Assembly: GCA_947493695.1 (NCBI GenBank)
Contig: CANLSF010000002.1
Span: 1,302,001 to 1,366,000 of the forward strand
DNA length: 64,000 nt
Source: an uncultured Kiloniellaceae bacterium
GTDB taxonomy: Bacteria; Pseudomonadota; Alphaproteobacteria; Kiloniellales; Kiloniellaceae
Direction of reading: 5' to 3'
Below the pieces are notes generated by a model, which had not been told where the DNA came from, made no database searches, and worked only from the letters and a program-made list of their open reading frames with translations. Each line of letters begins with the position of its first letter. Positions within the stretch are counted from its first letter, which is position 1. The position numbers and the translations under genes were made by a program. Of this stretch, positions 2,951 to 21,290 are shown piece after piece.

Positions 2951-3916
2951 TCAGTTTTTCCTGGTTGATATATCGAGCTTGTTCATTCGGCGATACAGCG
3001 TTGCACGGCCAACCTTCAATCGGCTCGCAGCCTGAGAAACATTGTTTCCAGTTTGCGCAAGCGCCTGCAATACGGCTGTGCGTTCCGCCTTTGCAAACCC
3101 GATATCGCTTTTCCCGTCACAAAGCAGATCGGATACAAGGCAAGGATCAATCGTGCCGCCGACACCCAGCAGGTATCTGCGGCGCGCGCCGCGGCTTGCG
3201 CCAACGACCAGATCGTCCTGATCCACTGCCAGGAGAGAATTTGCCTCAGAGGTTTCGTTCGACAGCATCAGGATGCGGGACTTCGGATAGGCAGCGCGGA
3301 AATTTGAAACCTCGATGTTCTGCGCAATTTGTGAAACCAGCGCAGCAATCATCGCGTTAAGAGCCGGGCTCTGATCGTATCTGGCCGACGAAACGCCAAG
3401 TGCGCCGATCAGGTTTCCGTCAGGTCCGAAAATCGGCGCATCAATGCAGCTGATGCCTGTATTGCGCGCCAGAAAATGCTCATCGCGATGGATGACGACC
3501 CGCCTCTTTTCTGTAAGACAGGTGCCGACGCCGTTTGTACCTTCCTCTTCCTCGCTCCAGTTCGTGCCTTGCCAAAACCCCCATTGCTTGAAGGTGTGCT
3601 CATCGACATCATTCAGCCGCTGGTCCATCACAATGCCTTCGGCGTCCGTAAACAAAACCGCACAGCCCGGCTTGCCGACAATGTTGAACAAGCGGTCGAG
3701 CCAGGGTGAGGCCAAAGTCATTGCCTCACCAAAGGTGTCGTGCCGCTGTCGCAGTTGATGCGAGGTAATGCGTTCGGGTGCCCGGCGCTTACCCGGATGC
3801 AGGCCGTGTTTTGAGAGGGATCGGGACCAGGACGCCGCGAGTCGCGACATCGCCGCCGCTTTCGAAGACGCCGCTGTTTCCAGAACCCTGTCGATATGCT
3901 GGCTGTGTCCGATCAC
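2951..3916 (-). CDS. GAF-Fis transcriptional regulator (AcoR-like without the AAA+ domain)
   Basis: This is 321 aa from a GTG preceded by GAGGTGA. Residues about 75-200 form a GAF sensor of the AcoR type (FNIVGKPGCAVLFTDAEGIV; NGVGTCLTE; APIFGPDGNLIGALGVSS). The C-terminus (about 280-318) is a Fis helix-turn-helix, ALAQTGNNVSQAASRLKVGR then ATLYRRMNKL. AcoR proteins normally have a sigma-54-interacting AAA+ module between these parts, with GAFTGA and Walker motifs. None is present, so it cannot open sigma-54 promoters by the standard mechanism. It is the last gene of a sulfurtransferase operon (10 bases after the rhodanese), which suggests it senses or controls that function. Confidence 0.83.
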   Translation of the reverse strand: MIGHSQHIDRVLETAASSKAAAMSRLAASWSRSLSKHGLHPGKRRAPERITSHQLRQRHDTFGEAMTLASPWLDRLFNIVGKPGCAVLFTDAEGIVMDQRLNDVDEHTFKQWGFWQGTNWSEEEEGTNGVGTCLTEKRRVVIHRDEHFLARNTGISCIDAPIFGPDGNLIGALGVSSARYDQSPALNAMIAALVSQIAQNIEVSNFRAAYPKSRILMLSNETSEANSLLAVDQDDLVVGASRGARRRYLLGVGGTIDPCLVSDLLCDGKSDIGFAKAERTAVLQALAQTGNNVSQAASRLKVGRATLYRRMNKLDISTRKN

Positions 3917-7418: not shown

Positions 7419-7919
7419 TTATCCGAACCAGATGTTTGAAATTCGCTTTGCAGCATCGTGCTCAATATTTACCCGATCAGGCACAAAATCTTCTTCTATA
7501 GAGTCACCTTGCGCGTAACATCGAACCGGACGCCCTATGAGGTCTCTGATCAACGCGGGCATCATGGAAACCGACATTAATGCGGCCGTTGGTATCGGTT
7601 GTGCATTTGATACGGACTCTTCTGTCCAGTCTAACTGGGGAACCGGCGCGCCTATCCAAAGTCTGAACCCAAGTGTTCCAACAATGCCATGACTAAGCGA
7701 TTGCCAATCTGGGTCAGAGATAGCAATCGCATTGACCTGAGAAGTCGGTGCTCCACACCATTGCGGAGCCATAATAGGCCCCAATACGTTCCCGCTCGCG
7801 CAAATGTTCTGAACACCGATTTTCCTAAGGTTCGCTTCGTCGTGCGATAGTGTTCTTGGCAGAATTTCAGGATGGCATTGCACCGTGCCGTCTTGTTTGT
7901 AAATCACCACGATATCCAC
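7419..7919 (-). CDS. Protein with peptidase-inhibitor I78-like C-terminus
   Basis: This 166-aa frame starts at a GTG with a strong GGAGG eight bases upstream. The last 40 residues fit the I78 inhibitor pattern: LIGRPVRCYAQGDSIEEDFV followed by PDRVNIEHD and a terminal I..IWFG, corresponding to the family's R-P-x-R...PG...D(Y/F)RPDR(L/V)N(I/V)..D...I...(C)G. The N-terminal 120 residues contain GVQNICASGNVLGPIMAPQW and are unfamiliar. There is no signal peptide, although most I78 proteins are exported. I78 proteins inhibit serine peptidases of the subtilisin and elastase types. It is divergent from the YcaO gene and is probably part of that locus, perhaps as an immunity- or protease-control protein. 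That role is speculation. Confidence 0.6.
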   Translation of the reverse strand: MDIVVIYKQDGTVQCHPEILPRTLSHDEANLRKIGVQNICASGNVLGPIMAPQWCGAPTSQVNAIAISDPDWQSLSHGIVGTLGFRLWIGAPVPQLDWTEESVSNAQPIPTAALMSVSMMPALIRDLIGRPVRCYAQGDSIEEDFVPDRVNIEHDAAKRISNIWFG

Positions 7920-8201
7920 TCGTTAATCCTCCACGAATAACCGCGACCTCAAACCTAGGCCGTATTCATCGATACCTGAGCAAGTGTGATTTAAACGTGA
8001 TCGCCCCCTACTACCCATGGAAGAAATTCCAAATCACAAAGAGTAAGAAAGTTTACCGTCTTGGTTTCAAAGCTGTGACGAGAACGACCGTAAAAGGTGA
8101 TTATCTTTTGCATATGCGATCTGATACTGCGAAAATATATGTGTTACCACAGCCAATGGTGACAGCCCGCTGCTCTAAACTATGTGCTTTGGGGGATGGC
8201 G

Positions 8202-9554
8202 ATGGGGACAGGCGACAAAAATACACACATTCTGGGCATGGCTTCACGCCTGCTGGACGGACAGGGCAACGAAGACAACAGGGACTCGAGCGCTGCTGAG
8301 GCCCTTTTGGAAGTCCTAGGTTACCGTTCGCTTAAGGGGTTGGAAAAAGCACAGGCCTCGCGACTACTGCGCGCAGGCACGAAAATTCGGCGCATTTTTC
8401 AATTCCAGTCTTCAGAAGCCCCGGGACTTTACATTCTTGGTGGCGAAGCGGATCCAGCGACAATAGGATTAAGCGGCAGTGGAATATCCATAGGTAGTTT
8501 GGCAGGCTCGGGCCCGACCTTCGGCGCCGCATTAGAAGCGTGCCTTGGCGAAGGCGTCGAATATCTCTCTCAGATCGAGCGTGATGACGATATCTTCAGC
8601 CAAAACGCTAATAGCGATATCGACTATCAAATCCCAGAAACCGAGGCCGACGCGCTCCTGCACAGATTGCACATGCCTGCCGGGATGCGATTCAGCGAAA
8701 TTGAATGCGTTGTCGGTCAGAAACTCGAGACGGACTCATCATGCATACTTCCCGCTGATCTGGTACTGAGACGCGGTTCCAATGGGTCCCCCACCTCTTG
8801 TCGTACCTCACTCAGCCTAGGCTGTGCTGCCGGGCGCACAATGAGCCACGCAAAGCTTAGCGCCTTGATGGAGCTTGTGGAACGGGATGCGGTCGCTCAC
8901 TGGTGGTTGGGCAATCAGCCTGGACGTCCAATCCGCCCTGACGTTATGGAACAGGCAGGCATCGAAGGTGTGATCAGCGCAACACGACAAGATGTAACCG
9001 ACAGGAACACCTGGTTTATCGATATCAGCACCGGTTTGAATTTGCCCGTTGTTGCGGCTGTGTCTCTTACTCCCGCAGGCAATAGCTTTGCCTTGGGTTT
9101 GGGTGCGCACCCCATCCTGTCAACCGCTGTCCAAAAAGCCTTCAACGAACTCTGCCAAACCGAAATGGCATACCAGATTGTCGACATGAAGGAAGAGGCT
9201 TACGGCTCCGAAAAACTGAATGCAGCAGACTTCAATCATCGAAAACGCCAAGGCTGGGTGGGAGCTAAAGATAGTCCCATTCTCAAACCACAAGGCAGCA
9301 GCCGATTGTCCGCTCCGATTCCAGACGGACAAACCATTGACGATTTGCTGTCCAAGGTCATCGATCGTTTCCAGGAACGTTCGATCTCAGTGTATGTCGT
9401 TGACCTCACGCGGCCGGAATTTCAGATCCCCGCAATTTGGGCAGGCTCCGCCGATTTAATTCCGTATCCATGCGAAGTGATAGACGGTTGCGTAACGGCA
9501 ACAGCGCAGCTGTCATCCAGTCAACGGCCGCAATACGGTTTTTCCTTAGTGTGA
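8202..9554 (+). CDS. Stand-alone YcaO-domain ATP-dependent cyclodehydratase/thioamidase
   Basis: The product is 450 aa from the ATG at 8202, with GGGGG six bases before it (a GTG at 8184 is possible). Two ATP-site half motifs are visible: SGPTFGAALEACLGEGVEYL near 102-121, and SLGCAAGRTMSHAKLSALME followed by LVERDAVAHWW near 203-235. Near residue 400 comes VYVVDLTRPEFQIPAIWAGS, matching the D-x-T-x-P-x-x-x-P strand of YcaO enzymes. YcaO proteins use ATP to activate backbone amides, forming azolines, thioamides or amidines in peptides. The C-terminus (RPQYGFSLV) lacks the PxPxP tail of azoline cyclodehydratases, and no TfuA or dehydrogenase partner is nearby. Only 30 bases separate it from a SARP regulator downstream. 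The substrate is unknown. Confidence 0.85.
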   Translation: MGTGDKNTHILGMASRLLDGQGNEDNRDSSAAEALLEVLGYRSLKGLEKAQASRLLRAGTKIRRIFQFQSSEAPGLYILGGEADPATIGLSGSGISIGSLAGSGPTFGAALEACLGEGVEYLSQIERDDDIFSQNANSDIDYQIPETEADALLHRLHMPAGMRFSEIECVVGQKLETDSSCILPADLVLRRGSNGSPTSCRTSLSLGCAAGRTMSHAKLSALMELVERDAVAHWWLGNQPGRPIRPDVMEQAGIEGVISATRQDVTDRNTWFIDISTGLNLPVVAAVSLTPAGNSFALGLGAHPILSTAVQKAFNELCQTEMAYQIVDMKEEAYGSEKLNAADFNHRKRQGWVGAKDSPILKPQGSSRLSAPIPDGQTIDDLLSKVIDRFQERSISVYVVDLTRPEFQIPAIWAGSADLIPYPCEVIDGCVTATAQLSSSQRPQYGFSLV

Positions 9555-9584
9555 TTCTGAACCCGTTCTTGGGAAGGAAACTAT

Positions 9585-11684
9585 ATGTCGACAACCGCTG
9601 TTTCTCTCCGAAATGAGCAGACCGACGCGGTAAGTGTTGAACCACGCCAGAGCAGCCGCTTCAGTCTGCTTCTATTTGGAGGCGCCAGCTTTCTCCATGA
9701 TGAAGCATTGGTTCAAATCAAAAACAAAAAAGCGATGGCACTATTTTGCTATTTGGCCTGGATCGCTCCGCGCGCCGAAACCCGTGAACGGTTGGCCGGG
9801 CTGCTTTGGGGGGAGTCCGACGAACAAAGCGCGCGAACCTCGTTACGGCAAACTCTTCGACATCTTCGGGTGGCACTGGAAGACTGCAGCTTTCCCGGCC
9901 TTCATGTCGGCCGAGTGGAAGTCAGAGTTGTCGACACCAGCCTGAACATCGATGTTGAACGAGCGCTTGAGGACGCGAAACGTGGTCGGATTGACAAGGA
10001 GTTGATGAGCGCCGATCGTCTCGGTGAGACAATCCTCTATGGTTTTGAAGACCTCGATCCGATGTTTCGCGGATGGTTAATGGTCCAGCGGAAAGTGTTT
10101 GAAGACCAGCTAACGTCCACCCTGGAAACACTACTATCAGATAGAGATTTTACGACCGGCAACCAAGGAAGAAGAGCCGCAACGGCTCTCAACAAGCTAG
10201 ATCCGACGAACGAACTCGCGTGCCGAAGCTTAATGCACAACTATGCCATGGCTGGCGATATTGCAGCGTCAATTCGTAACTACAACGACTTATGGGCTCT
10301 TCTGGACGAAGAGTTCGATATGCCGCCGTCACAAGAGACCCAAGAATTGGCGATTTCGATAAAAAGCGGTGCTTACGAAGAAACCATTAAGAAATCGAGA
10401 CACCCCACAGAAAACACCCTGTCACCATCGCAGCATACTGAAAGCCGGCGACTGATTATTCGTGTCCTCCCTTTCGATCGGGAGAATGCCGCGAAGGATC
10501 ATAGTCGCCTGGTGCAAGGCATGCGTATGGACCTGATTGCACGGCTGGTTCGTTTTCGGGAATGGTCGGTCGTGGAAGATGACGACTTGAAAGGCGAACA
10601 GGAATCCCTGTCGATCTCACGCCAACAGGATACCGACACTTATGAAGTTGATGGAACCGCATTCCCTGAAGGCAACCGCATCAGACTGGTGATTACGTTG
10701 AAAGACAAACAGCGCCGGCAATACATATGGAGCGATTGGTTTTACCTGGAACCGGAAAGCTGGTTCCAGACCCAGTCGGCGGTAGTGCGCAGATTGGCGA
10801 TTGCCGTGAATGTGCAGTTATCCGCAGAGCGTTTGGCGCAAATGGCTACATCCAACAGACTGCAACCGAAGCTGCATGATCGTTGGCTTTTAGGGCAGGA
10901 ATTAAGCTTTCGCTGGCAGTCGGATAGCGAGATGGAGGCCGAAAAGATCTTTCACGAGATCATTGAGGAAGCGCCGGACTTTGCGCCGGCCTTCAGCAGC
11001 CTGGTTCAGATTATCAATTCCCGTCACCTTATCTTTCCCGGTACCTTTCGGTCCCATGAAAGGTCGGTCGAATCCATTGGCCTGGCCAAGACTGCGGTAA
11101 TGCTGGATCCGCTCGATTCACGCTCGCATCTCTGCCTCGCATGGTCGAATGCCATGGTTCAGTACTTCGGCCAGGCGGAACTGAGTTTTCGGTTGGCATG
11201 CGATCTCAACGAAAATGATCCCTGGTCCCTTGTCTCGGCATCTCTGGGACTTGCATTCTGCGATGAATTGGCCTTAGCGGAGAAAATGGCTGACCAGGCC
11301 CTCGATGTCGGGCTTGGAGCGTCCCGACTGCATTGGGGCTATCAAACCTGCGTCCGCTTCCTGGCGGGCGACTACGAACTTGCCGTCAAGGCGGCCGATA
11401 GTGCTCAAGATATGATGCTTGGCTTGCCGGCGTGGAAAGCCGCGGCCCTGTTTCATCTCGGCCGCCAACGCGAAGCGTCCGTTGAAGTACAGCGTTTCCT
11501 GTCATTGGTCCGTAAGCAATGGGTCGGTGATCAACCCGGGAGCGACGCGGCCATCATCCGGTGGTTTCTGCAGCTCTACCCGATCCGCCGGCGGGAACAC
11601 TGGCAACGCCTGTACGATGGCCTGGCCGGCGCAGGCGCACCTATGCCGGGCATGGAAGAATTCGACGAGCGATACCCGGCATAG
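9585..11684 (+). CDS. SARP/BTAD-type regulator with TPR C-terminus
   Basis: This is 699 aa with AAGGA upstream of the ATG. Residues about 25-120 resemble an OmpR-like winged helix (FSLLLFGGASFLHDEALVQI, KKAMALFCYLAW, ETRERLAGLLWGESDEQSAR TSLRQTLRHLR). Residues about 125-265 form a bacterial transcriptional activation domain (DRLGETILYGFEDLDPMFRG, ALNKLDPTNELACRSLMHNY). A middle region near 290-400 resembles the adenylate-cyclase-associated segment of such regulators (RVLPFDRENAAKDHSRLVQG). TPR-like helices run from 420 to 640. There is no NB-ARC ATPase. SARPs switch on secondary-metabolite clusters. The position directly after the YcaO gene suggests it controls this locus. It converges with a minus-strand gene 16 bases away, with no clear terminator. 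Confidence 0.85.
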   Translation: MSTTAVSLRNEQTDAVSVEPRQSSRFSLLLFGGASFLHDEALVQIKNKKAMALFCYLAWIAPRAETRERLAGLLWGESDEQSARTSLRQTLRHLRVALEDCSFPGLHVGRVEVRVVDTSLNIDVERALEDAKRGRIDKELMSADRLGETILYGFEDLDPMFRGWLMVQRKVFEDQLTSTLETLLSDRDFTTGNQGRRAATALNKLDPTNELACRSLMHNYAMAGDIAASIRNYNDLWALLDEEFDMPPSQETQELAISIKSGAYEETIKKSRHPTENTLSPSQHTESRRLIIRVLPFDRENAAKDHSRLVQGMRMDLIARLVRFREWSVVEDDDLKGEQESLSISRQQDTDTYEVDGTAFPEGNRIRLVITLKDKQRRQYIWSDWFYLEPESWFQTQSAVVRRLAIAVNVQLSAERLAQMATSNRLQPKLHDRWLLGQELSFRWQSDSEMEAEKIFHEIIEEAPDFAPAFSSLVQIINSRHLIFPGTFRSHERSVESIGLAKTAVMLDPLDSRSHLCLAWSNAMVQYFGQAELSFRLACDLNENDPWSLVSASLGLAFCDELALAEKMADQALDVGLGASRLHWGYQTCVRFLAGDYELAVKAADSAQDMMLGLPAWKAAALFHLGRQREASVEVQRFLSLVRKQWVGDQPGSDAAIIRWFLQLYPIRRREHWQRLYDGLAGAGAPMPGMEEFDERYPA

Positions 11685-11700
11685 GAAAAGAAGACATTTC

Positions 11701-12210
11701 TTACTTACACATACTCATTGTGTAGTCCGCGACGCGGCACTTGAAAAAGTCACATTTGTTTACGGGTTGCGGTGGCGGTACATTAATCCGCTCTTCGTAA
11801 AATGGCGGTTCTTCATAGTCGCCCGAAGGCAATTCATTCCCATTGCTATCGCAAACACGGTCATGACCAGCCTGTCCAATTAGATTGTACGGGAATCTGA
11901 GCACAAATTCCGTCCAACTGGATTGCTCAATGCGAAAAGTATTAAGCCGGTGCTTCGGAAATGTAATGATTGGGAGTGGGCCGGTATATCCTGTCCCCCT
12001 TGCATTGTTGTTTATGTAGTCTTCAAGGACTTGAATATCGCCGGACTCAATTGGTGTACTAGTAGTAGGGTCCAAAGGACGATCTCCATTGACGATCATG
12101 TCAATCAGAACCGCACCGACAGCCTTCCACGCATCTGTGGTATCCAGTATGGTTGGAGTGTCGCGTTCGTGATCAACTTGCGAAACATGTGTTGGTTCGG
12201 GAACAGACAT
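11701..12210 (-). CDS. Unrecognised 169-aa protein with cysteine-rich tail
   Basis: AAGGAG stands seven bases before the ATG, so the frame is well supported. The sequence begins MSVPEPTHVSQVDHERD and contains ILDTTDAWKAVGAVLIDMIV, an acidic/proline-rich middle, and four cysteines all in the last 45 residues: one in DRVCDSNGN and three in KCDFFKC...MCK at the very end. There is no signal peptide or transmembrane segment. I recognise no family. It is 27 bases downstream of a heme peroxidase gene on the same strand and so is probably co-expressed with it. Position, size and tail make it a candidate substrate or partner of the peroxidase or the YcaO enzyme. This is inference only. Confidence 0.65.
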   Translation of the reverse strand: MSVPEPTHVSQVDHERDTPTILDTTDAWKAVGAVLIDMIVNGDRPLDPTTSTPIESGDIQVLEDYINNNARGTGYTGPLPIITFPKHRLNTFRIEQSSWTEFVLRFPYNLIGQAGHDRVCDSNGNELPSGDYEEPPFYEERINVPPPQPVNKCDFFKCRVADYTMSMCK

Positions 12211-12237
12211 CTTACATCTCCTTAAAAAATGTTGTTT

Positions 12238-13920
12238 TCAGATAAACGGGTCAACTGCGCCATTGACGATTTCGGCATCTGCCAGAAAAGAAATAAGATC
12301 AGACATAGATCTCGGCACAGCGACAGAGGGAGTCATATGATTGAAGAAAGACTCCACATCGGAACGAACTTCGCGATCTCTTTCAATTAAGTGAGCAGTT
12401 TGATCTCGGAATTTAAAGAGTGTCTCAGCCACAATTGCCGAGCCCATGACACCAAAACCGCCGTTTGCACTTGCCTTGTTTTCGAACATGACAAATAGAA
12501 GTAATGGAGGGTCCTGCAACAGAGGTTGGATATCTTCCTGCTTCAGTCGTCCATTGCTCTGAGAGCTCAATTTGCTTTCAAGCCAGGTTCTAAGTTCGGG
12601 CTCCCAATTTTGACGCTTGAGGGTATTTGCACCGGGCAGTTTTCGACTGATTATCTGGCCTATCAAAGAGTCCACGGAGCGAAGCCCAGAAAACGCACCT
12701 CGCTGCAGATCGGCGAACAACAGATCAGGACCCTCTGACTCGCCCTCTTGATGGAATGCGGGATGCTTAGTCAGTTTTTCTTCGATACTAGGCGATATTG
12801 CAGCCGCTCTCTGGGCTGTTGCCTTACCTTCGAAGTCGAAGAAATTTGACCACGCAACTAACCACTTCCCCACGTGAGGCACTCGTTTTGGCAGAGTGCT
12901 GCCGCGCCTATTGATGAGACCATCGATCGGCGCGGCTGTCTTCTTTCCGTTGAGATCATAATGTGCACGGACCATGGCATGGCCTGCACGGAACACAGCG
13001 TGCGCAAACTCAAGGGGCATCCTTCGATCAACACAATCCCGTTCCAAACGGAACCCCTCTCGGAAGTTCTCTAGGACCGACGGATCGAGTAGCCGCTCGA
13101 GAAGGTCTTCAAAAATGATCTGTCGATAGACGTAGGTAGTGACTCTACTGGCCCTGATGAACAACTGCCTGCTCGAGAGTCGCTCGCCAGTTGTCCTTAA
13201 GTAGTCGACGACCGAATTGTGCAACAGAGCGAAGAGGACCGTGAGCTGAGCGATGATCAAATGATCATCGTTGCGCGGATCGGCAATAAGAGTATCGCCC
13301 TTCCAGGAATGGTCACCTTCGATTTCGACACGCGGCAGGTCGCGAAAATCACCGCTTTGCAAATTCTGTGAAATGCTCAACGACGGTACGGCGACCGGCC
13401 CTCGCCCATTCGTAGGCTGATCGGGGATAAAGAGTAGCCTCAGTTTGTTTCTGCTAAGGGTTCCTGAGTGCTCTTTCCCCTCTCGGCGATACGCAAGTGG
13501 ACAGGCGCCTGGTCCTCCACCGTAGAGTGTTTCGAGCATGAGGCGCTGTTCCCGAAGATCATGCCGGGCTGTCATTTCATCATATAGGTTAGGGATACGT
13601 GTCGGGTTGTGTACCAGATCGTGCGCCAAGAGCTGGGCTAAATAGGTATAGCCGGCGGGTATCTTATTTGCTCCTGCGGTCTGCCCGGTCGAATCTTCTA
13701 CCAACGTCGCCCGTCGCATCGATTGCGCTAAACGACGCAGCATTTCCCGTGTGTGTTTTTTATTGCGTGTCCCCTTGTACTCTTCAGCGGGCTTTGGCTT
13801 ACCGAAGAGATTACGAAAGGATGCACTTGCATTCTTGTCAACCGGACACCCGGCTAGAACAAGCTCGATGGGTGCTTCAGCACTCTCAGAATTGAGTTTG
13901 TTCGGTGTACTATCTGGCAT
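12238..13920 (-). CDS. Animal-type heme peroxidase, divergent form
   Basis: Start is the ATG at 13920, five bases after GGGGGAGG, giving 560 aa. Core residues of the peroxidase-cyclooxygenase superfamily are visible: distal segment AGYTYLAQLLAHDLVHN (Gln96, His100, Asp101), catalytic-arginine segment IADPRNDDH near 218, and proximal histidine in FRAGHAMVRAHY near 316. In well-studied members the residue before the distal His is an Asp that esterifies heme. Here it is Ala99, whereas the second peroxidase at 15518 keeps Asp. No signal peptide is seen, unlike many secreted relatives. It is transcribed with the cysteine-tailed gene downstream. Likely activity is H2O2-dependent oxidation or halogenation of an unknown substrate. 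Confidence 0.85.
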   Translation of the reverse strand: MPDSTPNKLNSESAEAPIELVLAGCPVDKNASASFRNLFGKPKPAEEYKGTRNKKHTREMLRRLAQSMRRATLVEDSTGQTAGANKIPAGYTYLAQLLAHDLVHNPTRIPNLYDEMTARHDLREQRLMLETLYGGGPGACPLAYRREGKEHSGTLSRNKLRLLFIPDQPTNGRGPVAVPSLSISQNLQSGDFRDLPRVEIEGDHSWKGDTLIADPRNDDHLIIAQLTVLFALLHNSVVDYLRTTGERLSSRQLFIRASRVTTYVYRQIIFEDLLERLLDPSVLENFREGFRLERDCVDRRMPLEFAHAVFRAGHAMVRAHYDLNGKKTAAPIDGLINRRGSTLPKRVPHVGKWLVAWSNFFDFEGKATAQRAAAISPSIEEKLTKHPAFHQEGESEGPDLLFADLQRGAFSGLRSVDSLIGQIISRKLPGANTLKRQNWEPELRTWLESKLSSQSNGRLKQEDIQPLLQDPPLLLFVMFENKASANGGFGVMGSAIVAETLFKFRDQTAHLIERDREVRSDVESFFNHMTPSVAVPRSMSDLISFLADAEIVNGAVDPFI

Positions 13921-14678
13921 ATCTGCCTCCCCCAAAATTGACTATTCCTATTGTTTCGGCGTTTGGATTTTTAGTTGCGCCTGCCAGATCCATCAGTTTG
14001 GCTTTATGAGTTTGTATCTCTTCGCCGCAGACCTTGAGCTCTCCCCTCCCATTTGCGCGAACCGACAAAGACAACCGCCGCGGTTGTTGCTCTCCTGTCT
14101 GAAAAATTTAGCGATAGGACTTAGGCTCTTTTGAGTTTGAGCCCTATCGCCGAGTTCGGGAGGATCGACTTAAAACCAAACAGCAGTCTTCAAATCTGGC
14201 TCACTGGCACGACCCGGGTCTTGGTTTTTGCGCACAAGACTTAACGATACCCCCGATAAAGCCGGCCTCGCGGTGTTGGTTTCCATTGTCACTCCGTAAT
14301 CCCCCCTCACGCTTTCATACAAGTCTGTTTTTTCGACCTGCTGTGATGGACATCAGCTTTGCAGAACAATCGTGAGTCCATCGTGATTCTGTCTTGAGGC
14401 AACCCTTAACGAACTGGAGTTGGCGGTATGCAGCGCTGCGGGTCTGGCATTCTTGCGGGCGGCACAGAGCGCTTCAGAAGAAAAGCACGTCAACGACAGT
14501 TCACGTGCTGTGCCGCAATCGAGCGCGGCGGCCTCTTCCGGCTTTGCACAGGCAAGCCAGGCGCCCGGCTTCGGATTAGCACGAAGTCCGTACCTGCAAT
14601 TCCAAATCACGATGGGATCACGCGACGAATAGAGAATGCCTATCACCTGATCACAGCCGCACAATTGAGGAGAAAATC
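13921..14678. other. Divergent intergenic region of the peroxidase genes
   Basis: About 750 bases separate the two divergent peroxidase arms. At 14111-14150 a structured dyad has the outer stem GCGATAG/CTATCGC and inner stem GGCTC/GAGCC. A plus-strand frame at 14420-14632 (TTG start, Ala/Ser-rich, 70 codons) has no convincing ribosome site and no recognised family, and I do not call it a gene. Promoters for both directions should lie here, but I see no consensus pair that I trust. Confidence 0.4.
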
Positions 14679-15077
14679 ATGTGCGTGATGACTGCCGAAG
14701 CAACTGGCTTGGAGATTTTACAAAGCAATCCACCCAAGCCCTCAATCATCGCGTCAGGGTGCATTACTTTGCCAGGTTGGAGAAATCCGAAATTGGCGCT
14801 GCTTGAAATGAGTCTATCCAGGGATGACACACTCGGTTTCGAATTTGCTGCAGACCTAGCGAACGACACCTCTCTTCCAGAAATCACATCGATCGTTGGT
14901 CAGCCTGTTTGGAAACGAGCAGTTGAGGGCGTCGTCGGTGTCCGCGTCGTCACAGATCGCGAGCTGCGTGATTCGCCTCCATCATACGAGCGTACTTGTC
15001 AGCCTCAATGTGTCTCTCTGCCGCGGCCCGATCAAATCGCTGACGGCAGCACCAGAGGCGATCCGCGATTCATCTAG
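14679..15077 (+). CDS. Small protein of unknown function in the peroxidase cluster
   Basis: GGAG is well placed before the ATG. The 132-aa product reads MCVMTAEATGLEILQSNPPK, then a probable beta-rich core (IASGCITLPGWRNPKLALLE, LGFEFAADL, ITSIVGQPVW, GVVGVRV). From memory this G-W-x-N-P-x-L ... F-x-F-x-A-D ... W ... GVRV layout occurs in small uncharacterised bacterial proteins, but I cannot name the family. The last 35 residues (SPPSYERTCQPQCVSLPRPD) look atypical and could follow a frameshift. It is the first gene of the rightward arm leading to the second peroxidase. Confidence 0.5.
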   Translation: MCVMTAEATGLEILQSNPPKPSIIASGCITLPGWRNPKLALLEMSLSRDDTLGFEFAADLANDTSLPEITSIVGQPVWKRAVEGVVGVRVVTDRELRDSPPSYERTCQPQCVSLPRPDQIADGSTRGDPRFI

Positions 15078-15202
15078 AGCCGCGGCTTGAATCGTCGCGT
15101 CATTGATAGCAATGGCCACAGTGGATCCAGAGCCACCCGATGTTTCTCAGTAACCCGTCGAACAACATAGCAGCAAAACAAGTCAAGCATAGGAGACGAA
15201 AA

Positions 15203-15394
15203 ATGGCTGACGGAACAGTTCCCAAGCCCGGGACACGAAAGGTGACGGTCGGTGCGCTGAGCGGTGCAGTCGTAACCCTGCTCGCGTATCTCCTCAAAGA
15301 CACAGCATACGCGCTCTCGCCGGAAGTTACCGCCGCTGCCGGCACACTCGTAACCGCCATTCTTTTTTACCTGACACCGGAAACCTACCGCTAG
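15203..15394 (+). CDS. 63-aa holin-like membrane peptide
   Basis: The ATG at 15203 has GGAG ten bases upstream. The product is MADGTVPKPGTRKVTVGALS, then a hydrophobic helix (GAVVTLLAYLL), a short polar turn and a second hydrophobic stretch (TAAAGTLVTAILFYL) before a charged tail (TPETYR). This helical hairpin resembles small phage-type holins or membrane anchors. No lysin, spanin or phage gene is nearby, so a lysis role is not supported. It lies about 120 bases before the second peroxidase and points the same way, and may help release or anchor cluster products. The family assignment is by shape only. Confidence 0.55.
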   Translation: MADGTVPKPGTRKVTVGALSGAVVTLLAYLLKDTAYALSPEVTAAAGTLVTAILFYLTPETYR

Positions 15395-15517
15395 GCGCGA
15401 CGATCGCTAGGCGTTCGTTTCGCAATTGCACCATGTGGCAAGCCCAAGTGCTTGCCGCCGACGGTGGCCAAGCCTCCATAGCTCAGATTTGAAACCCAGT
15501 TACTTAGAGAGGACAAA

Positions 15518-17110
15518 ATGAAACACGGACAAGAACACTACTTCATCAAAGGTAACGGCTGGATTAGTGGTAGGCTCTTTCCATCCGCCAACCTCACACG
15601 GATCTTCTCCAAGTACGCACCCTTCTTTCCAACACCGAAGCCCGACCCAATTGACCGCGACCCACAGGATCCGCCGACCAAACCTCGACGCATCTTCTGC
15701 CGCCTGTTCGGCGAGGGAGGAGAACCGGACACGGAGGCCCTCATCGAACTTGGCATGGCTATGGAGACCGAGCGAAGCGGTAACTTGGAAGCGGATGGAG
15801 ACAGCGATATTCCCGCTGGTTTCACCTATTTCGGACAGTTTGTCGATCACGATATAACGGCAGATCCAACCCCACTGTCCGTGACTGAAAGTACTGATCC
15901 AAGCGACATCATGAATGGACGCAGCCCCGCACTCGACCTCGACAGCCTATACGGCAAAGGGCCAGTGGAGAGTCAGGAGCTCTATGAGAGTGATGGCCTT
16001 CACCTCAGAACCGGCCGTACCAGCCCCACAGTTGGCAGAGAGCCCGGCGCACCGATCCAAGGCGACTTTCCGAACGACCTTCCGCGCAGCCCTGACAAAA
16101 AGGCAATTATCGGGGATGCGCGCAATGACGAGAATCTCGCGGTCGCGCAGACACATCTCGCCTTCCTAAAGTTCCACAATAAAAAACTCGACGAGCTGGC
16201 TGCCTTGCCCGACGCACCGGCAGGACCGGGCCTCTTCGAAGCTGTCAGGCGGGAGGTCGTACTCCTCTACCAGGCGATCGTCTTGACCGACTTTCTGCCA
16301 CGCCTTGTCCAAGAGGACGTGCTAGCGGACGTCCTAGAGAACGGCAGAACCTTTTACACTGACGATCTGGTCGACTGCATGCCCATCGAGTTTTCGGTTG
16401 CCGCTTACCGACTCGGACATAGCATGATCCGGTCAGACTACGAGTGGAACCGTGTATTCAACTCCAAACAGACTATCGCGACTATGGAGCTGCTTTTCGA
16501 ATTCTCCGAGGTCAGCGGCAGCAGGGGACCAGGAGATGATCCCTTCTTTGGCAAGCCGACACTGCCATCAAACTGGATCATCGACTGGACGCGCTTTTAC
16601 GACTTCTCACAGCTTGAAGGCGTCCAAACCCACCCAGACCTGAACTTCGCCCGTGAGATCGACACGAGGCTATCCTTCGCATTGCAAAACCTGCCGGAGT
16701 TCCAGAAGGACGGCATGCCAGCCATGTTCCTGTCCCTTGCAACCCGCAACCTGCTGCGTGGCCGGATGTTAAGGCTGCCGACAGGCCAGCAGGTCGCAGA
16801 GTCGATGGAGCACACCGGCTTGAACTTCGCGCCCATCACAAGCGAAGAGATTGCTGCGGGCCCGCATGAGGAGATTCTGCGGCGCCATGGATTTCATGAG
16901 AACACACCGCTTTGGTACTACATACTCCGCGAAGCAAAGATCACGCACGATGGCAACAAACTGGGGCCGGTCGGCAGCCGAATCATGGCCGAGGTCTTTG
17001 TAGGCCTGATTCAGAATAGCCCGACATCGCTGCTCACGGAGAGTCCCGGCCGCACGTTCTCAATGGCCGAGATGCTGAACTACGTCGACGACCTCAACCC
17101 GCTCGGCTAG
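15518..17110 (+). CDS. Animal-type heme peroxidase, canonical form
   Basis: The protein is 530 aa, with GAGAGGACA upstream of the ATG. The distal segment AGFTYFGQFVDHDITADPT contains Gln107, Asp110, His111 and Asp112, the full Q-x-x-D-H-D set with the heme-esterifying Asp. The arginine segment GDARNDENLAVAQ (near 194) and proximal-histidine segment YRLGHSMIRSDY (near 294) are also intact. The body matches bacterial peroxinectin/cyclooxygenase-like enzymes (SPALDLDSLYGKG). No signal peptide is visible. It forms an arm with the 762-aa protein and flavoprotein downstream. Expected chemistry is H2O2-driven one- or two-electron oxidation; the substrate is unknown. Confidence 0.88.
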   Translation: MKHGQEHYFIKGNGWISGRLFPSANLTRIFSKYAPFFPTPKPDPIDRDPQDPPTKPRRIFCRLFGEGGEPDTEALIELGMAMETERSGNLEADGDSDIPAGFTYFGQFVDHDITADPTPLSVTESTDPSDIMNGRSPALDLDSLYGKGPVESQELYESDGLHLRTGRTSPTVGREPGAPIQGDFPNDLPRSPDKKAIIGDARNDENLAVAQTHLAFLKFHNKKLDELAALPDAPAGPGLFEAVRREVVLLYQAIVLTDFLPRLVQEDVLADVLENGRTFYTDDLVDCMPIEFSVAAYRLGHSMIRSDYEWNRVFNSKQTIATMELLFEFSEVSGSRGPGDDPFFGKPTLPSNWIIDWTRFYDFSQLEGVQTHPDLNFAREIDTRLSFALQNLPEFQKDGMPAMFLSLATRNLLRGRMLRLPTGQQVAESMEHTGLNFAPITSEEIAAGPHEEILRRHGFHENTPLWYYILREAKITHDGNKLGPVGSRIMAEVFVGLIQNSPTSLLTESPGRTFSMAEMLNYVDDLNPLG

Positions 17111-17195
17111 CGAGAACTATGCCTGGCGGTCGCGCGAGGCGCGGTAGAGCCGCGTCTCGTCTTGATACAAAATCAACGCTGAAGGAGTCCGAGAA

Positions 17196-19484
17196 ATGAG
17201 CTTAATCGACGATGTGAAAGCCCTGTGCGACCGGCTTGCGCCGCGTGGCTGGCGCGATCTTCTCCTATCCGTCACGGCTAACGGTCTGGATATCTCACAG
17301 GCGAATGCAGCGAGTCTGGCAGCCGCGCTGATCCAGCCCATCGGCACAATCAACCGTGGTCATGCCGGATTCGACGACTTTCATGGCACGAGTAATCTCG
17401 CGATTGATGCCGGACGACCCTCTCACAGCCTTTTGTACCACGCGCTTGCCTCACCCGCAGTCCATCCAACAACCAGCGGACAACCGTCAAGCAACCCACA
17501 GGACTATCCGACTCTACATGAGCTGGACACGCTCGAAAACTACATCTACAGCCTGATGGCTGACCGGTCCGACCTTGACGACACCTTCGTCGCCGTTTTT
17601 GCGTATCAATACCGGGCCGGCTCCCGAACACCGCACCTGCGGCATGCAGACATAGCGTATTCGCGCACCGGTATCGCGCGCGTCGGGACAGCCGATCCGC
17701 ACTACGATGCTTCACGCCGAAGCTTTTGGATTCTTCCGGAAAGCGGTACCGAGTCCCTGCCAGTCCTGCCGGCACGCTACGGTGCCTTTCTAGCTCGCCG
17801 CGGTAAGCCTGGTGCAAACGGCTCAGTTCAGCACGGGCACAACGGGCAACAGGACCAGGATTACATCTTTCCACTCCACAAGCTCTTCGATGGAACCGAA
17901 TGTCTCGCGGAGCACACTATCAGTCTCGATTATCTCGAATTCCACAGGAATGAAAAGTTGAGGATGACGCACAGGTTACCTATACGGCAAGGGGGGCTGC
18001 CGGTCCCTGCTGGCTTCGATATCTCGAAGGCACCCTATGTTCGAGACTCTCGCAATGGCGGTAATCTCACGTCGCTGCAGCCTGCCGGTTCATCGACCCT
18101 CGTCGTTCCAACACCCGCAAGGAGCCTGGTGCGAACCGCCTCGCAGAACAACACAGTCACGAACAGCGACAAGCTGGTTCATTTCATGGTTCCGGCGATC
18201 CGCCAGGTCGGTCTGCGCTCCACGCGTTTTGCCGGCTCGACTCTGGAAATACCGGCTTCCGGAAAAGATCGCTTGTCTCCTGAGTATGTGAACATAAGGC
18301 ACGAGATCGACCCGAACGGCCCAGTCAACCAGACACCAATCAATCTTAACACACTGGCAACTCCGGCTTTCGAAACCAAGATGAAAAACGGTGGCTATGC
18401 CGCCGCTCACTTCATCGATGACTCCTGCGATGGCTGTATCGAGGTGCTGGTCGACGGACTGCCGCCAGCACTTCAGGGCGTGGAGTCTGTTCCCGCATTT
18501 TCCTTGGTTACTGCGCCGGATTTCTTCCCGCTCGCCGATCAGAGTGAGGTAGAGACCGACCAGACGATCGTAAGAGTGTCACCACTTTCCAAAGGTCGCC
18601 TACCCGTCAATCCATCCTTGCCACGGCCAAGCGACCTAACCTCCTTCGCATTCGACCAGGAGGACAAGACTGTAACGGCAATTGTCGGCGCCTTCGCGAC
18701 AGGACAGAAGATCAGCATTGTGGGGCAGGTAAACAGAATGACCAGCTATCTACCAGACGCCGCATCAAATGTCTTCGCTCCGGGATGGGACGCCTCACGG
18801 AGTCGAAATAGGTTCGGACCTTTCCTGACCAGCTCAGGCCTCGGATCGCCCTTTCCAGAGGATGCCAAGCTTTGCGCCGCGCTTGCTTCATTCTGGCCCG
18901 CCGCCGCACCCGACAATGGACGCACCTTCGGCAACCAGGGTTTTGGTAATCAGCTCCCGATGCTCGACGAGGAGCTCGGCTTTCACCCGAACCATGACCA
19001 AGTCCTATCGGGCCACCAAGTTTCGAGGCCTGGCTGGGACGGCGAGTTCGGTCCCTTCTTTGAGACTTCCGGCCGTCAACTTCACGTCAACTTCGTCGCG
19101 ATCGAGCGTTCGGATTACGTAAACCACGCTCTGGCAGGTCAAGTCGACCTGTCACTGACTGCTAGTATTCAGAGCGAAGAGCTTATCAGTCGCCATCAGG
19201 CCCTGATCGCATGCGAGAGGATTTTGGAACTGGGGCCGCAGCCGGACCTATGCCTAGTGGTTTTCCGGACGATAATCGACTGGCAGGAGGCCGGACCTGG
19301 CAGGAGCGAGCTGCGAGGAGCCGGCTATCTGCTGGAGTTTGCAGAGCTTCGCGGCGGTCAAATGCCGACCGCCGACCTGCGGCGCGTCCACAAAGCTGTT
19401 CACAAGCGCCATGTTTGCCAGTTCGGAGAGAATGGGATTGCCTATAAGAATGGCGGGGCGGCATTCGAATTCAAACCAGCCTAG
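17196..19484 (+). CDS. Large protein of unrecognised family, possibly a distant LodA-type quinoprotein
   Basis: This is 762 aa with AAGGAG ahead of the ATG. There is no signal peptide, transmembrane helix or familiar domain. Visible landmarks are AYSRTGIARVGTA near 155, CDGC near 412, VFAPGWDASRSRN near 528, and PFPEDAKLCAALASFWPAAA near 552-571. Compared from memory with LodA/GoxA oxidases (a GIARVG opening, FFPGIE, then PED..L..FWPARVP around the tryptophan that becomes the quinone cofactor), several short blocks occur in the same order. The cofactor cysteine is not obvious, and the GIARVG block is internal rather than N-terminal. The following gene encodes a LodB-like flavoprotein, which is the known maturation partner of LodA. 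This is a hypothesis; otherwise it is simply unknown. Confidence 0.6.
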   Translation: MSLIDDVKALCDRLAPRGWRDLLLSVTANGLDISQANAASLAAALIQPIGTINRGHAGFDDFHGTSNLAIDAGRPSHSLLYHALASPAVHPTTSGQPSSNPQDYPTLHELDTLENYIYSLMADRSDLDDTFVAVFAYQYRAGSRTPHLRHADIAYSRTGIARVGTADPHYDASRRSFWILPESGTESLPVLPARYGAFLARRGKPGANGSVQHGHNGQQDQDYIFPLHKLFDGTECLAEHTISLDYLEFHRNEKLRMTHRLPIRQGGLPVPAGFDISKAPYVRDSRNGGNLTSLQPAGSSTLVVPTPARSLVRTASQNNTVTNSDKLVHFMVPAIRQVGLRSTRFAGSTLEIPASGKDRLSPEYVNIRHEIDPNGPVNQTPINLNTLATPAFETKMKNGGYAAAHFIDDSCDGCIEVLVDGLPPALQGVESVPAFSLVTAPDFFPLADQSEVETDQTIVRVSPLSKGRLPVNPSLPRPSDLTSFAFDQEDKTVTAIVGAFATGQKISIVGQVNRMTSYLPDAASNVFAPGWDASRSRNRFGPFLTSSGLGSPFPEDAKLCAALASFWPAAAPDNGRTFGNQGFGNQLPMLDEELGFHPNHDQVLSGHQVSRPGWDGEFGPFFETSGRQLHVNFVAIERSDYVNHALAGQVDLSLTASIQSEELISRHQALIACERILELGPQPDLCLVVFRTIIDWQEAGPGRSELRGAGYLLEFAELRGGQMPTADLRRVHKAVHKRHVCQFGENGIAYKNGGAAFEFKPA

Positions 19485-19497
19485 AGGTAAAAACGCA

Positions 19498-20556
19498 TTG
19501 ACCAAGTTCTCGCACACTCCTGAGTTCGACCTCATAGTTGTCGGAGCTGGTCCTGCTGGCTGCTCTGCTGCCATCACGGCGGCACAACGAGGTCTCTCCG
19601 TAATGTTGCTGGAACGGTCTGCAGTCCCCTGTGATCGTCCGGGCGAGACGCTACACCCCGGTGCTGAGGCTCTCTTTGAACAACTCGGTGTGGCAAAAGC
19701 GATCTCCGAAGCTGGCTTTCAACGTCATCGCGGCTGCCATCGAGTCAGCGCCGACGGCGATGTCTATCAGGCCTACGGGCAAGACGCCGATGGGCCCTGG
19801 CGGGGCTTTCAAGTGCAACGGAGCACGCTCGACCGATTACTGGCAAGGAAAGCCCGGAACTGTGGCGTCCAGGTCCGGAGCGGTATCGGAGCCCAGCGAG
19901 TTCTCATCAATAGCGCCGGGCGTGTTACAGGCGTGGAGACTGCACACCGGCGTCATCATGCCCGCTGGCTCGTGGATGCAACTGGCTCGGCTGGCTGGCT
20001 GAAAAGGCAGCTCGGCCTGACGATCACGCGCTGCTCTCCGCAGCTGACGGCTTGGTATGGCTATGTCGACGGCCGGCCAGCCTATTGCGATGGCGACCCA
20101 CGCCTGATTGTCGAGCCCAACGGCTGGACCTGGATTGCCCCCCTTGGCAACAGCATCAGTGCCTGGGTGCGGCTGGTCATCAATCAAGACCGGCGGCGCC
20201 CAGCAACAGCGCCAGAGCTCTTAGCAGGCCATCCAATCAGGGGGGCTATACGCGGTGCCGATGTCACTTGGAAGATTTTGGACAGTTTAGCGGGTCCTGG
20301 CTTTTTCGTTGCCGGCGATGCTGCGTCCGTCCTCGATCCAGCTTCCTCACATGGAGTCTTGAGGGCACTGATGACAGGTATTCTGGCGGGTGACAGCATC
20401 GCAAAGGTAGAGCAGAGCATTGTCACAGAAACCAGCTCATTCCTCGGATACGAAGCTTGGCTTCGAAATACCTTCGAATCTGACTTGGAGGCACTCTTGT
20501 CTCTCTACATAGAGATGGATTTGTACACGGATGCTTGGAAACGGGGTTCAGGTTGA
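19498..20556 (+). CDS. FAD-dependent oxidoreductase, LodB/tryptophan-halogenase-like
   Basis: Translation probably starts at TTG 19498 (LTKFSHTPEFDLIVVGAG), with AGAGG ten bases upstream, giving 352 aa. The FAD dinucleotide fold VVGAGPAGCSAAITAAQRG occupies residues 13-33. RPGETLHPGAEALFEQLGV follows, and the second FAD motif GDAASVLDPASSHGVLRALM lies near 275. These match flavin monooxygenases related to tryptophan halogenases, LodB and QhpG, which hydroxylate protein or free tryptophan. I do not see a clear halogenase WxWxIP motif. It starts 14 bases after the 762-aa protein, so the two are almost certainly coupled, as in lodA-lodB pairs. The substrate is inferred to be that neighbour. Confidence 0.8.
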   Translation: MTKFSHTPEFDLIVVGAGPAGCSAAITAAQRGLSVMLLERSAVPCDRPGETLHPGAEALFEQLGVAKAISEAGFQRHRGCHRVSADGDVYQAYGQDADGPWRGFQVQRSTLDRLLARKARNCGVQVRSGIGAQRVLINSAGRVTGVETAHRRHHARWLVDATGSAGWLKRQLGLTITRCSPQLTAWYGYVDGRPAYCDGDPRLIVEPNGWTWIAPLGNSISAWVRLVINQDRRRPATAPELLAGHPIRGAIRGADVTWKILDSLAGPGFFVAGDAASVLDPASSHGVLRALMTGILAGDSIAKVEQSIVTETSSFLGYEAWLRNTFESDLEALLSLYIEMDLYTDAWKRGSG

Positions 20557-20578: not shown

Positions 20579-21290
20579 TCAGTCCCACACCATGTGCGTT
20601 AGCTTGGTATTTTGATAGTTGCGAATAGCCTCGCGGCCACCCTCGCGCCCCATGCCGGAATGATCTATCCCTCCGAAAGGGGCTTGGGCATGAGCGACGA
20701 GAAACGTGTTCACCCCGACCATACCTGCATGCAACTCACGAAACAGACGCTCGGCTTTCTCGTGGTTTCCCGTGAACGCATAAGCCGAAAAGCCGAAGGG
20801 CCTGCTGTTCGACTTCTCAATGGCCTCGTCAAATGTGCTGAACCGTGCGATTGGTGCGACGTGACCAAAGGATTCCTCTTGCATGATGTCAGCCCGATCG
20901 GGAACATCCACGAGAACCGTAGGCTCAAGGAAAACCCGGGGGTTGCGCTCCTCTGGACGGCGCCCTCCCTGTGAGGATCTGCGTACCTTTCTCTGCAGCA
21001 TCCTCGATCAGGCATTCAACCTTATCCCTGCCAGCCTCCAACGTCAGAGGCCCCATAGAACTGGTCGGGTCCAGGCGGTCGCCCAACATCAGTGCTTTCG
21101 CCTCGGCAGCAAAACGCTCCGCGGATTGATCGGCCACGCTGGTGTGACGGAATCATGTCGCCAAACAGGCGCTCAGCTTCGCCAGCATGCCATTCGAACG
21201 GCTTAACTGCAGCACCACTCCCTCCTGCCGACTGAGAGATCGGACGACCGGTCTCAAGGGACGGTGCTTTGGCGATTGCCTCGCTTCGCG
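20579..21290 (-). pseudogene. Aldehyde dehydrogenase remnant (succinate-semialdehyde type)
   Basis: Pieces of one aldehyde dehydrogenase lie in three frames. SEAIAKAPSLETGRPISQSA through ERLFGDMIPS (about 21285-21156) is N-terminal. ADQSAERFAAEAKALMLGDR through TQILTG (about 21137-20965) and PEERNPRVFLEPTVLVDVPD to the end (about 20955-20579) are C-terminal. Between the first and second pieces some 200 residues are missing, including the catalytic glutamate and cysteine region, and there is a further frameshift near 20960. The gene cannot make an active enzyme. The C-terminal part is well preserved (GMGREGGREAIRNYQNTKLT), so decay looks recent. Confidence 0.85.

Follow-up and report, generated by a model that had tools for sequence, protein, structure and literature searches.

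Do the adjacent genes for a stand-alone YcaO enzyme, a SARP-type regulator, two animal-type heme peroxidases, a small cysteine-tailed protein, a 762-residue protein and a LodB/QhpG-like flavoprotein, all found between 7.4 and 20.6 kb of a 64,000-nucleotide stretch of DNA (hereafter, the window) from an uncultured Kiloniellaceae bacterium, serve a single oxidative pathway, as was proposed in an earlier note drawn up from the sequence of this stretch, or do they belong to more than one system? The window sits in contig C2 of a genome of 6.46 Mb in 20 contigs, and every gene named in that note is indeed an open reading frame at its position, with domain assignments that agree with the description given there. 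Comparison with other genomes reveals, however, that the genes from 8184 to 20556 form two separately conserved modules and not one pathway: module A (8184-13935), comprising the YcaO, the regulator, peroxidase 1 and the 169-residue cysteine-tailed protein, and module B (15518-20556), comprising peroxidase 2, the 762-residue protein and the flavoprotein (Table 1). The explanation that we favor, to which we would assign an even chance of being correct, is that these are two neighboring but independent oxidative modules, the first devoted to a YcaO- and peroxidase-dependent modification of a protein tail, the second to a LodA/GoxA-type oxidase carrying cysteine tryptophylquinone (CTQ) and working alongside a peroxidase.

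The separation of the modules emerges from searches of 289 alphaproteobacterial genomes, the sample used for the YcaO, the 762-residue protein and the 169-residue family: the 762-residue protein matches two genomes and the YcaO (E ≤ 1e-15) five, each count including the genome of origin, which is the only one to appear in both lists. None of the 10 other genomes that carry module A yields a member of the 762-residue family with its profile (A2), and the gene is likewise missing from all 77 other genomes drawn from the same genus, family, order and class; a single member was found in the window's own genome. Looking from the opposite side, the available flanks of 80 module-B loci, some of them short on account of contig ends, contain no homologue of the YcaO, the regulator or the 169-residue protein (E ≤ 1e-4), no member of the 169-residue family detectable by profile, and no module-A gene of any description apart from peroxidase homologues. 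The neighborhood check that the earlier note had set beforehand as its test of refutation therefore goes against co-occurrence of the whole gene set, given that the two halves occur independently of one another. Base composition also differs somewhat, the third-position content of guanine plus cytosine (GC) being 0.46-0.59 in the four module-A genes versus 0.60-0.68 in peroxidase 2, the 762-residue protein gene and the flavoprotein gene; overall GC is 0.545 in the locus and 0.571 elsewhere in the window, and no tRNA gene was found in the window. In favor of a joint action of every gene between 7.4 and 20.6 kb on one oxidised protein or peptide it can be argued that they adjoin and that each half contains an animal-type peroxidase, these two being the only ones found in the genome (E 1e-5); nonetheless, because modules A and B are found without each other in the genomes and flanks compared, we reject the single pathway, which must be regarded as very unlikely.

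Module A recurs as a set in relatives, in agreement with what the earlier note had grouped together on that side of the locus. The four other genomes retrieved with the YcaO (loci L011, L012, L125 and L126) all have an animal-type peroxidase nearby, and three of the four also have the regulator and the 169-residue family, L126 having a cyclase-TPR protein instead; the YcaO of L125 is cut by a contig end. A search with the regulator through 398 genomes found 13 others at E ≤ 1e-40, and among the seven best loci (those with E below 1e-140, a limit set once the results had been inspected) six have the peroxidase, five an intact YcaO and five the 169-residue family, the regulator itself adjoining the YcaO in relatives; no YcaO is present in L117, the regulator of L115 holds one internal stop, and the stretches read around the six weaker matches (L118-L123) revealed no other module-A gene. 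In Mesorhizobium huakuii NZP2235 and Paroceanicella profunda D4M1 the genes for the YcaO, the regulator, the small protein and the peroxidase stand together as a block on plasmids, while Rhodobacteraceae QY30 has the YcaO, the regulator and the peroxidase together with a different small protein. Four further loci from the same order (L153-L156) were picked out of a further 21 genomes in which the YcaO had matches of varying strength, their YcaO genes being identified by blastp alone: L153 carries the full set, L155 has the YcaO, the regulator and a member of the 169-residue family, and in L154 (two YcaO genes) and L156 no other module-A gene was found. The tandem YcaO genes of L154 (7860-10830) lie near a DUF1858 protein, without a detectable module-A regulator, peroxidase or small protein. 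Two neighbors of module-A loci may also be recorded, a protein of the vanadium chloroperoxidase type (PAP2, VCPO_N) in L011 (6513-8165, plus strand) and, beside the YcaO of L114 (11611-13455, plus strand), a second peroxidase of the module-B type.

The YcaO of the window is the only one found in its genome at E 0.001 and is separated by 30 bases from the gene of the regulator, as the earlier note had stated. Its best matches among solved structures are LynD and TruD, and it scores 102.5 bits against the SagD-type TOMM domain, below the cut-off of 219. The sequence E..ERD, which we take to be the YcaO ATP-binding motif, was read by eye from the alignment in 12 of the 13 module-A YcaO proteins, with L144 differing. 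In the regulator, the BTAD domain is above its cut-off whereas the DNA-binding part (Trans_reg_C) reaches 18.0 bits, below the cut-off of 26.2.

The gene of the 169-residue protein starts 27 bases downstream of that for peroxidase 1, and the cysteine tail of the product, which the earlier note had mentioned, reads RVADYTMSMCK. The family is present in 4 of the 289 genomes, each time inside a YcaO locus; all four sequences were used to build the profile, so that this result shows the absence of the family elsewhere in the sample. The densest conservation of the family lies in the last eleven residues, which contain one cysteine: all 12 clear members (window, L011, L012, L111-L114, L116, L125, L141, L144 and L153) end in R-h-[GA]-D-Y-[TV]-h-x-x-C and a single further residue, or two in the case of L012, the threonine being replaced by valine in L141 and L144, and R159, D162, Y163 and C168 are invariant in the nine aligned members. 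The member in L155 is recognized by a tail-less profile (E 1.4e-6 in a search of 16 sequences) but ends in SCSQCG. Small proteins without clear similarity to the family end in LLRRCR (L115), FTRCR (L142) and SCASC (L126), those of L115 and L142 being encoded directly after the peroxidase gene; the L142 protein (3337-3900, minus strand) gives a weak EF-hand match, below cut-off. Taken together, the cysteine falls within the last three residues in 16 of 16 proteins and is penultimate in 14, against a background of 459 penultimate cysteines in 11,926 reading frames of 60-260 residues, mostly not genes; the proteins of L012, L155, L115, L142 and L126 were first selected by a filter for a cysteine near the end and hence constitute weaker evidence for that residue. 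A tblastn search of plasmids with the L112 small protein gave no match, even though more distant members do occur in plasmids.

Because the YcaO adjoins a dedicated protein with a conserved one-cysteine tail, the tail is proposed as its target, and Cys168 appears from the sequence comparison to be the best candidate. Module A thus probably introduces a chemical mark into the cysteine-bearing tail of a small protein encoded beside a heme peroxidase. Such a system would resemble the YcaO-dependent azol(in)e pathways for ribosomally synthesized and post-translationally modified peptides (RiPPs; LynD, TruD and the SagD family) in its YcaO domain and in the closest solved structures, yet it departs from them in several respects: the locus holds no partner protein, the candidate substrate is not a short precursor with several core Cys, Ser or Thr residues but a protein of 169 residues with a single invariant cysteine, and a heme peroxidase stands where azol(in)e systems usually employ a flavin dehydrogenase as the oxidising enzyme. 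The lack of an E1-like partner is shared with YcaO-TfuA thioamidation, a route that we considered and ruled out upon finding no TfuA (PF07812) match in the window's genome at E 0.01.

Some of these observations weigh against a YcaO-dependent tail modification, namely the missing TfuA match itself, the absence of any Pfam match to an E1-like or leader-binding partner among the 10 locus proteins, the broken YcaO gene of L111, which lies in pieces, and the 17-kb stretch read around L155, in which no peroxidase was found. The most serious competitor, though doubtful in our estimation, is the view that peroxidase 1 has a subunit, chaperone or electron partner in the small protein, whose cysteine would bind a metal or form a thioester or disulfide, while the YcaO acts on something else. 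The position of the gene directly after that of the peroxidase, the size of the small proteins (about 130-190 residues, large for a RiPP precursor) and the possibility that the R..DY....C tail serves as a binding site all speak for a partner of the peroxidase. L155 speaks otherwise, since it retains the YcaO, the regulator and a family member with another cysteine tail in a stretch where no peroxidase was detected, as do the dissimilar small proteins of L115, L142 and L126, which likewise end in cysteine, albeit having been chosen, like L155, by a search for that residue. We continue to prefer the small protein as candidate YcaO substrate. In this scheme the YcaO, under control of the SARP-type regulator, would spend ATP on the backbone at the C-terminal cysteine, yielding most simply a thiazoline, with a thioamide or an amidine as further options; peroxidase 1, whose gene forms a two-gene unit with that of the small protein, would oxidise or make use of the modified tail.

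Module B is centered on the 762-residue protein, for which neither Pfam (up to E 1) nor NCBIfam gives a match and for which a sequence search of the PDB, conducted either with the protein alone or with a 66-sequence profile, found nothing up to E 10. A scan of genome contigs with the single sequence found no relative, but one with a four-sequence alignment found 102, from which 80 loci were kept. A homologue of the flavoprotein is present in 78 of the 80, mostly within tens of bases of the 762-residue family gene, which confirms the association between a LodB/QhpG-type flavoprotein and this protein that the earlier note had made. The two loci in which it is missing are L033 (L010/L033, Rhodospirillaceae bacterium SYSU D60007) and L067, whose contig extends about 1.6 kb past the gene; L013 likewise has no flavoprotein homologue near the gene. 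An Edaphobacter metagenome-assembled genome has tandem family genes before a single flavoprotein gene (L022, 10001-14928).

The conserved residues of the family are of a particular kind. Invariant in the window protein and 65 relatives are, among others, W19, D408, D521, P529-W531, P552, E555, D556, K558, C560, W567, P572, D573, D591, W614-G616 and D640, so that D556, C560 and W567 are found in all 66 aligned sequences, and the pattern P-x-x-E-D-x-K-x-C-x6-W is present in 81 of 81 proteins, that is, the window's and the 80 relatives whose aligned part exceeds 500 residues; the same motif is carried by L010, L013, L014 and L015, which came from other searches. The last three named are such as would be expected in a protein with an oxidised tryptophan. 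The residues that make up the LodA cofactor are C516 and W581 (PMC4417212); in the alignment, the LodA segment PWQADFFNC contains C516 together with D512, and WWP contains W581, to be compared with PFPEDAKLC...FWP in the 762-residue protein, where the D-x3-C spacing equals that of D512 and C516; D556, C560 and W567 were paired with the three LodA residues by eye, from position and motif. Tryptophylquinone enzymes are reported to have a strictly conserved aspartate in this position, and in QhpC the corresponding residues are Asp33, Cys37 and Trp43 (PMC7876137).

Further resemblances to LodA/LodB and GoxA/GoxB comprise the two-gene order, oxidase followed by flavoprotein, the size of about 700-800 residues, the succession P-aromatic-x-x-D-x-x-x-C and then W-P, and the motif DxxDG...PDFxP. 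When the profile of the family was compared with that of seven members of the LodA/GoxA family, the score was 42.5 (E 6e-4), as against at most 22.5 in 30 column shuffles and at most 18.3 with four unrelated family profiles. The confident columns in hhalign cover the DxxDG...PDFxP motif, and an alignment of the Cys/Trp region pairs D556/C560 with PWQAD...C of LodA and WPA with WWP. The AlphaFold model of the protein has a mean predicted local distance difference test score (pLDDT) of 92.5, and its 16 best fold matches in the PDB are all GoxA (E 4.8e-4 to 6e-3), the next following at E 0.31; on this model, the GoxA match is a lead and not proof of the fold.

Differences from the known enzymes are no less evident. 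Cysteine and tryptophan are 7 residues apart, versus 65 by numbering in LodA, a short spacing close to that of QhpC (Cys37-Trp43), whose Asp33 also precedes the cysteine by four residues (PMC7876137); QhpC, however, is a small subunit whose crosslinks are made by a radical SAM enzyme, while the protein in question has 762 residues and no radical SAM match appeared among the 10 locus proteins scanned. The LodA_N and LodA_C domains of Pfam, which give 210 and 164 bits in a LodA relative, are absent from the window protein; a Pfam scan of 43 family members gave nothing at E below 0.009, LodA_N appearing weakly in one of them (E 0.0093). An upstream gene for an animal-type peroxidase, occasional in module B, is another difference from LodA/GoxA. 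To the missing domains must be added, as points against a CTQ oxidase, that one GoxA fold match alone falls below E 0.001 and that all superpose badly (TM score 0.11-0.15, root-mean-square deviation 10-17 Å); that the hhalign probability with LodA is 28%, or 54% for the C-terminal half alone, and 2% (E 0.022) for the Cys/Trp region alone, with no meaningful alignment in global mode; and that one of the two patterns used to scan for relatives was ED[ATI]KLCAA, the conservation of Cys560 being therefore partly selected, whereas Trp567 is in neither pattern. Since the LodA domains of Pfam are absent and profile and fold support is weak, we call the protein LodA-like and do not file it as LodA or GoxA.

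The flavoprotein is not straightforward to classify by itself. It is above cut-off in Pfam, with Trp_halogenase matches, and the predicted structure (pLDDT 94.7) is nearest to halogenases, QhpG not being among the 50 best fold matches listed, such that the fold search does not separate a maturase from a halogenase. In NCBIfam, QhpG is the best match for the flavoproteins of L016, L059 and L024 and the second for that of the window, always below cut-off; the window's own scores (QhpG 99.7, cut-off 240; GoxB 82.1, cut-off 400; LodB 68.5, cut-off 400), like the nearness of halogenases, count against a maturase. It could thus be contended that the flavoprotein is a halogenase or a small-molecule monooxygenase and the 762-residue protein a carrier or non-enzymatic partner devoid of CTQ, in keeping with the halogenase matches in both structure and Pfam. 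This we consider unlikely: the closest structure to QhpG itself is the halogenase CmlS (PMC7876137), so that the structural match does not discriminate, and the Asp-x3-Cys...Trp arrangement of all 81 proteins is the pattern that a CTQ protein needs. Most likely the 762-residue protein is a divergent CTQ oxidase, matured by the flavoprotein, and provides the peroxidase with peroxide. The earlier note had envisaged an oxidatively matured 762-residue product; this stands insofar as the residues expected for an oxidised tryptophan are present, and is amended in that the product would more exactly be an enzyme forming its own CTQ.

The two peroxidases of the locus resemble bacterial animal-type heme peroxidases in matching PF03098 and in their core residues, Q, H, R and H being invariant in 16 sequences; the roles of distal histidine, arginine and proximal histidine are those we assume by analogy with myeloperoxidase. 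They differ at the distal site, which reads xHD with mostly RNDD in module A and DHD with RNDE in module B. Weighing against a fixed role in module B, a strong peroxidase match upstream of the 762-residue family gene and on the same strand is found in only 4 of the 80 loci (L017, Prochloraceae, with a gap of about 0.5 kb; L020, Archangium; L025, Gloeocapsopsis, with one gene intervening; L053, uncultured), a fifth (L047) having a weaker and more distant match. About 0.05 peroxidases would be expected by chance in the 1.42 Mb that the 80 loci comprise, given that 142 genomes yield 14 PF03098 matches, the window's own two included, and assuming an average genome of 3 Mb, an estimate that is rough in that the background genomes are all alphaproteobacterial. 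The peroxidase is hence an occasional, not an obligatory, partner of the family. On plasmid pREC1 of Acaryochloris marina (L013) the family gene has a Dyp-type peroxidase gene at a distance of 2.6 kb and a peroxidase family gene at about 8 kb, with a lipase gene in between; separately, on a Rhizobium sophoriradicis plasmid (L147), genes for a Dyp-type peroxidase, a ferritin-like protein and a C25 cysteine peptidase lie in the vicinity of an animal-type peroxidase gene.

As we infer the chemistry of module B, Cys560 and Trp567 would be joined into cysteine tryptophylquinone, assisted by Asp556 and by the flavoprotein encoded next to it; once matured, the enzyme would oxidise an amine or amino acid and release hydrogen peroxide, which peroxidase 2 would consume. 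What the data establish for both modules is their gene content, conservation, residue patterns and boundaries, from which the chemical steps, the substrates and the transfer of peroxide are deduced.

Table 1. Features of the locus, with positions in the window.
Feature	Position	Strand	Basis or remark
Stand-alone YcaO, 456 aa, module A	8184..9554	+	PF02624 147 bits (cut-off 25.7)
SARP-type (BTAD) regulator, 699 aa, module A	9585..11684	+	BTAD 41.5 bits (cut-off 22.1)
Small cysteine-tailed protein, 169 aa, module A, candidate YcaO substrate	11701..12210	-	family A6
Conserved C-terminal tail RVADYTMSMCK of the 169-aa protein	11704..11736	-	Cys168 coded at 11707-11709
Animal-type heme peroxidase 1, 565 aa, module A	12238..13935	-	PF03098 52.3 bits (cut-off 25)
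132-aa protein, loose module-B link	14679..15077	+	homologues near 762-aa genes
63-aa membrane peptide, holin-like	15203..15394	+	phrog_9284 E 2.8e-5, weak PHROG match
Animal-type heme peroxidase 2, 530 aa, module B	15518..17110	+	PF03098 87.7 bits (cut-off 25)
762-aa divergent LodA/GoxA-like protein, candidate CTQ oxidase, module B	17196..19484	+	invariant residues, fold search, weak profile match
Candidate CTQ site: Asp556 18861-18863, Cys560 18873-18875, Trp567 18894-18896	18861..18896	+	alignment
Flavoprotein, 352 aa, LodB/GoxB/QhpG-like candidate maturase, module B	19498..20556	+	conserved gene pair

Two gene starts in Table 1 depend on a choice. For the flavoprotein the most likely start, selected by eye, is the TTG at 19498, which has AGAGG upstream and lies 13 bases past the stop of the 762-residue protein gene, and the resulting 352 residues supersede the 405 previously given; for the membrane peptide it is the ATG at 15203. 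The latter peptide has no homologue in the other loci searched and is at most a candidate member of module B. The 132-residue protein, which like the 169-residue protein has no Pfam match up to E 1, has a homologue about 2 kb upstream of the 762-residue family gene in L095 (E 7e-21); L081, where the match immediately precedes that gene, and the module-A locus L012 give weak matches (3e-4 and 0.005). At the edges of the locus, the gene at 7419-7919 (minus strand), upstream of the YcaO, resembles I78 peptidase inhibitors (14.5 bits, below the cut-off of 23.6) and is not counted with module A, since a search of the other module-A loci found no homologue of it, and directly after the flavoprotein gene the stretch 20579-21001 (minus strand) looks by eye like the C-terminal piece of an aldehyde dehydrogenase, possibly a remnant.

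The open-licence literature returned no match for a YcaO with a SARP and a peroxidase, for a YcaO with a heme peroxidase, or for an animal heme peroxidase with LodA. A bolder proposal, which we deem distinctly unlikely, is that the YcaO and a heme peroxidase jointly turn the C-terminal cysteine of the 169-residue protein, perhaps together with the conserved tyrosine, into a heterocyclic or crosslinked redox tail, with the adjacent CTQ oxidase furnishing the peroxide; if true, this would represent a new kind of protein modification and a self-fuelled oxidative maturation in this genome. Quite apart from this proposal, module A offers YcaO enzymology a concrete substrate candidate, namely a protein from a neighboring gene that carries one conserved cysteine at its extreme C-terminus. 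Module B, in turn, brings to light about a hundred proteins from many phyla, occurring in Pseudomonas, Burkholderia, cyanobacteria, Nitrospira and Planctomycetes, that probably bear a self-made quinone and would constitute an overlooked and widespread branch, with a testable Asp/Cys/Trp site in which Cys and Trp are closely spaced, and with a candidate maturase encoded alongside.

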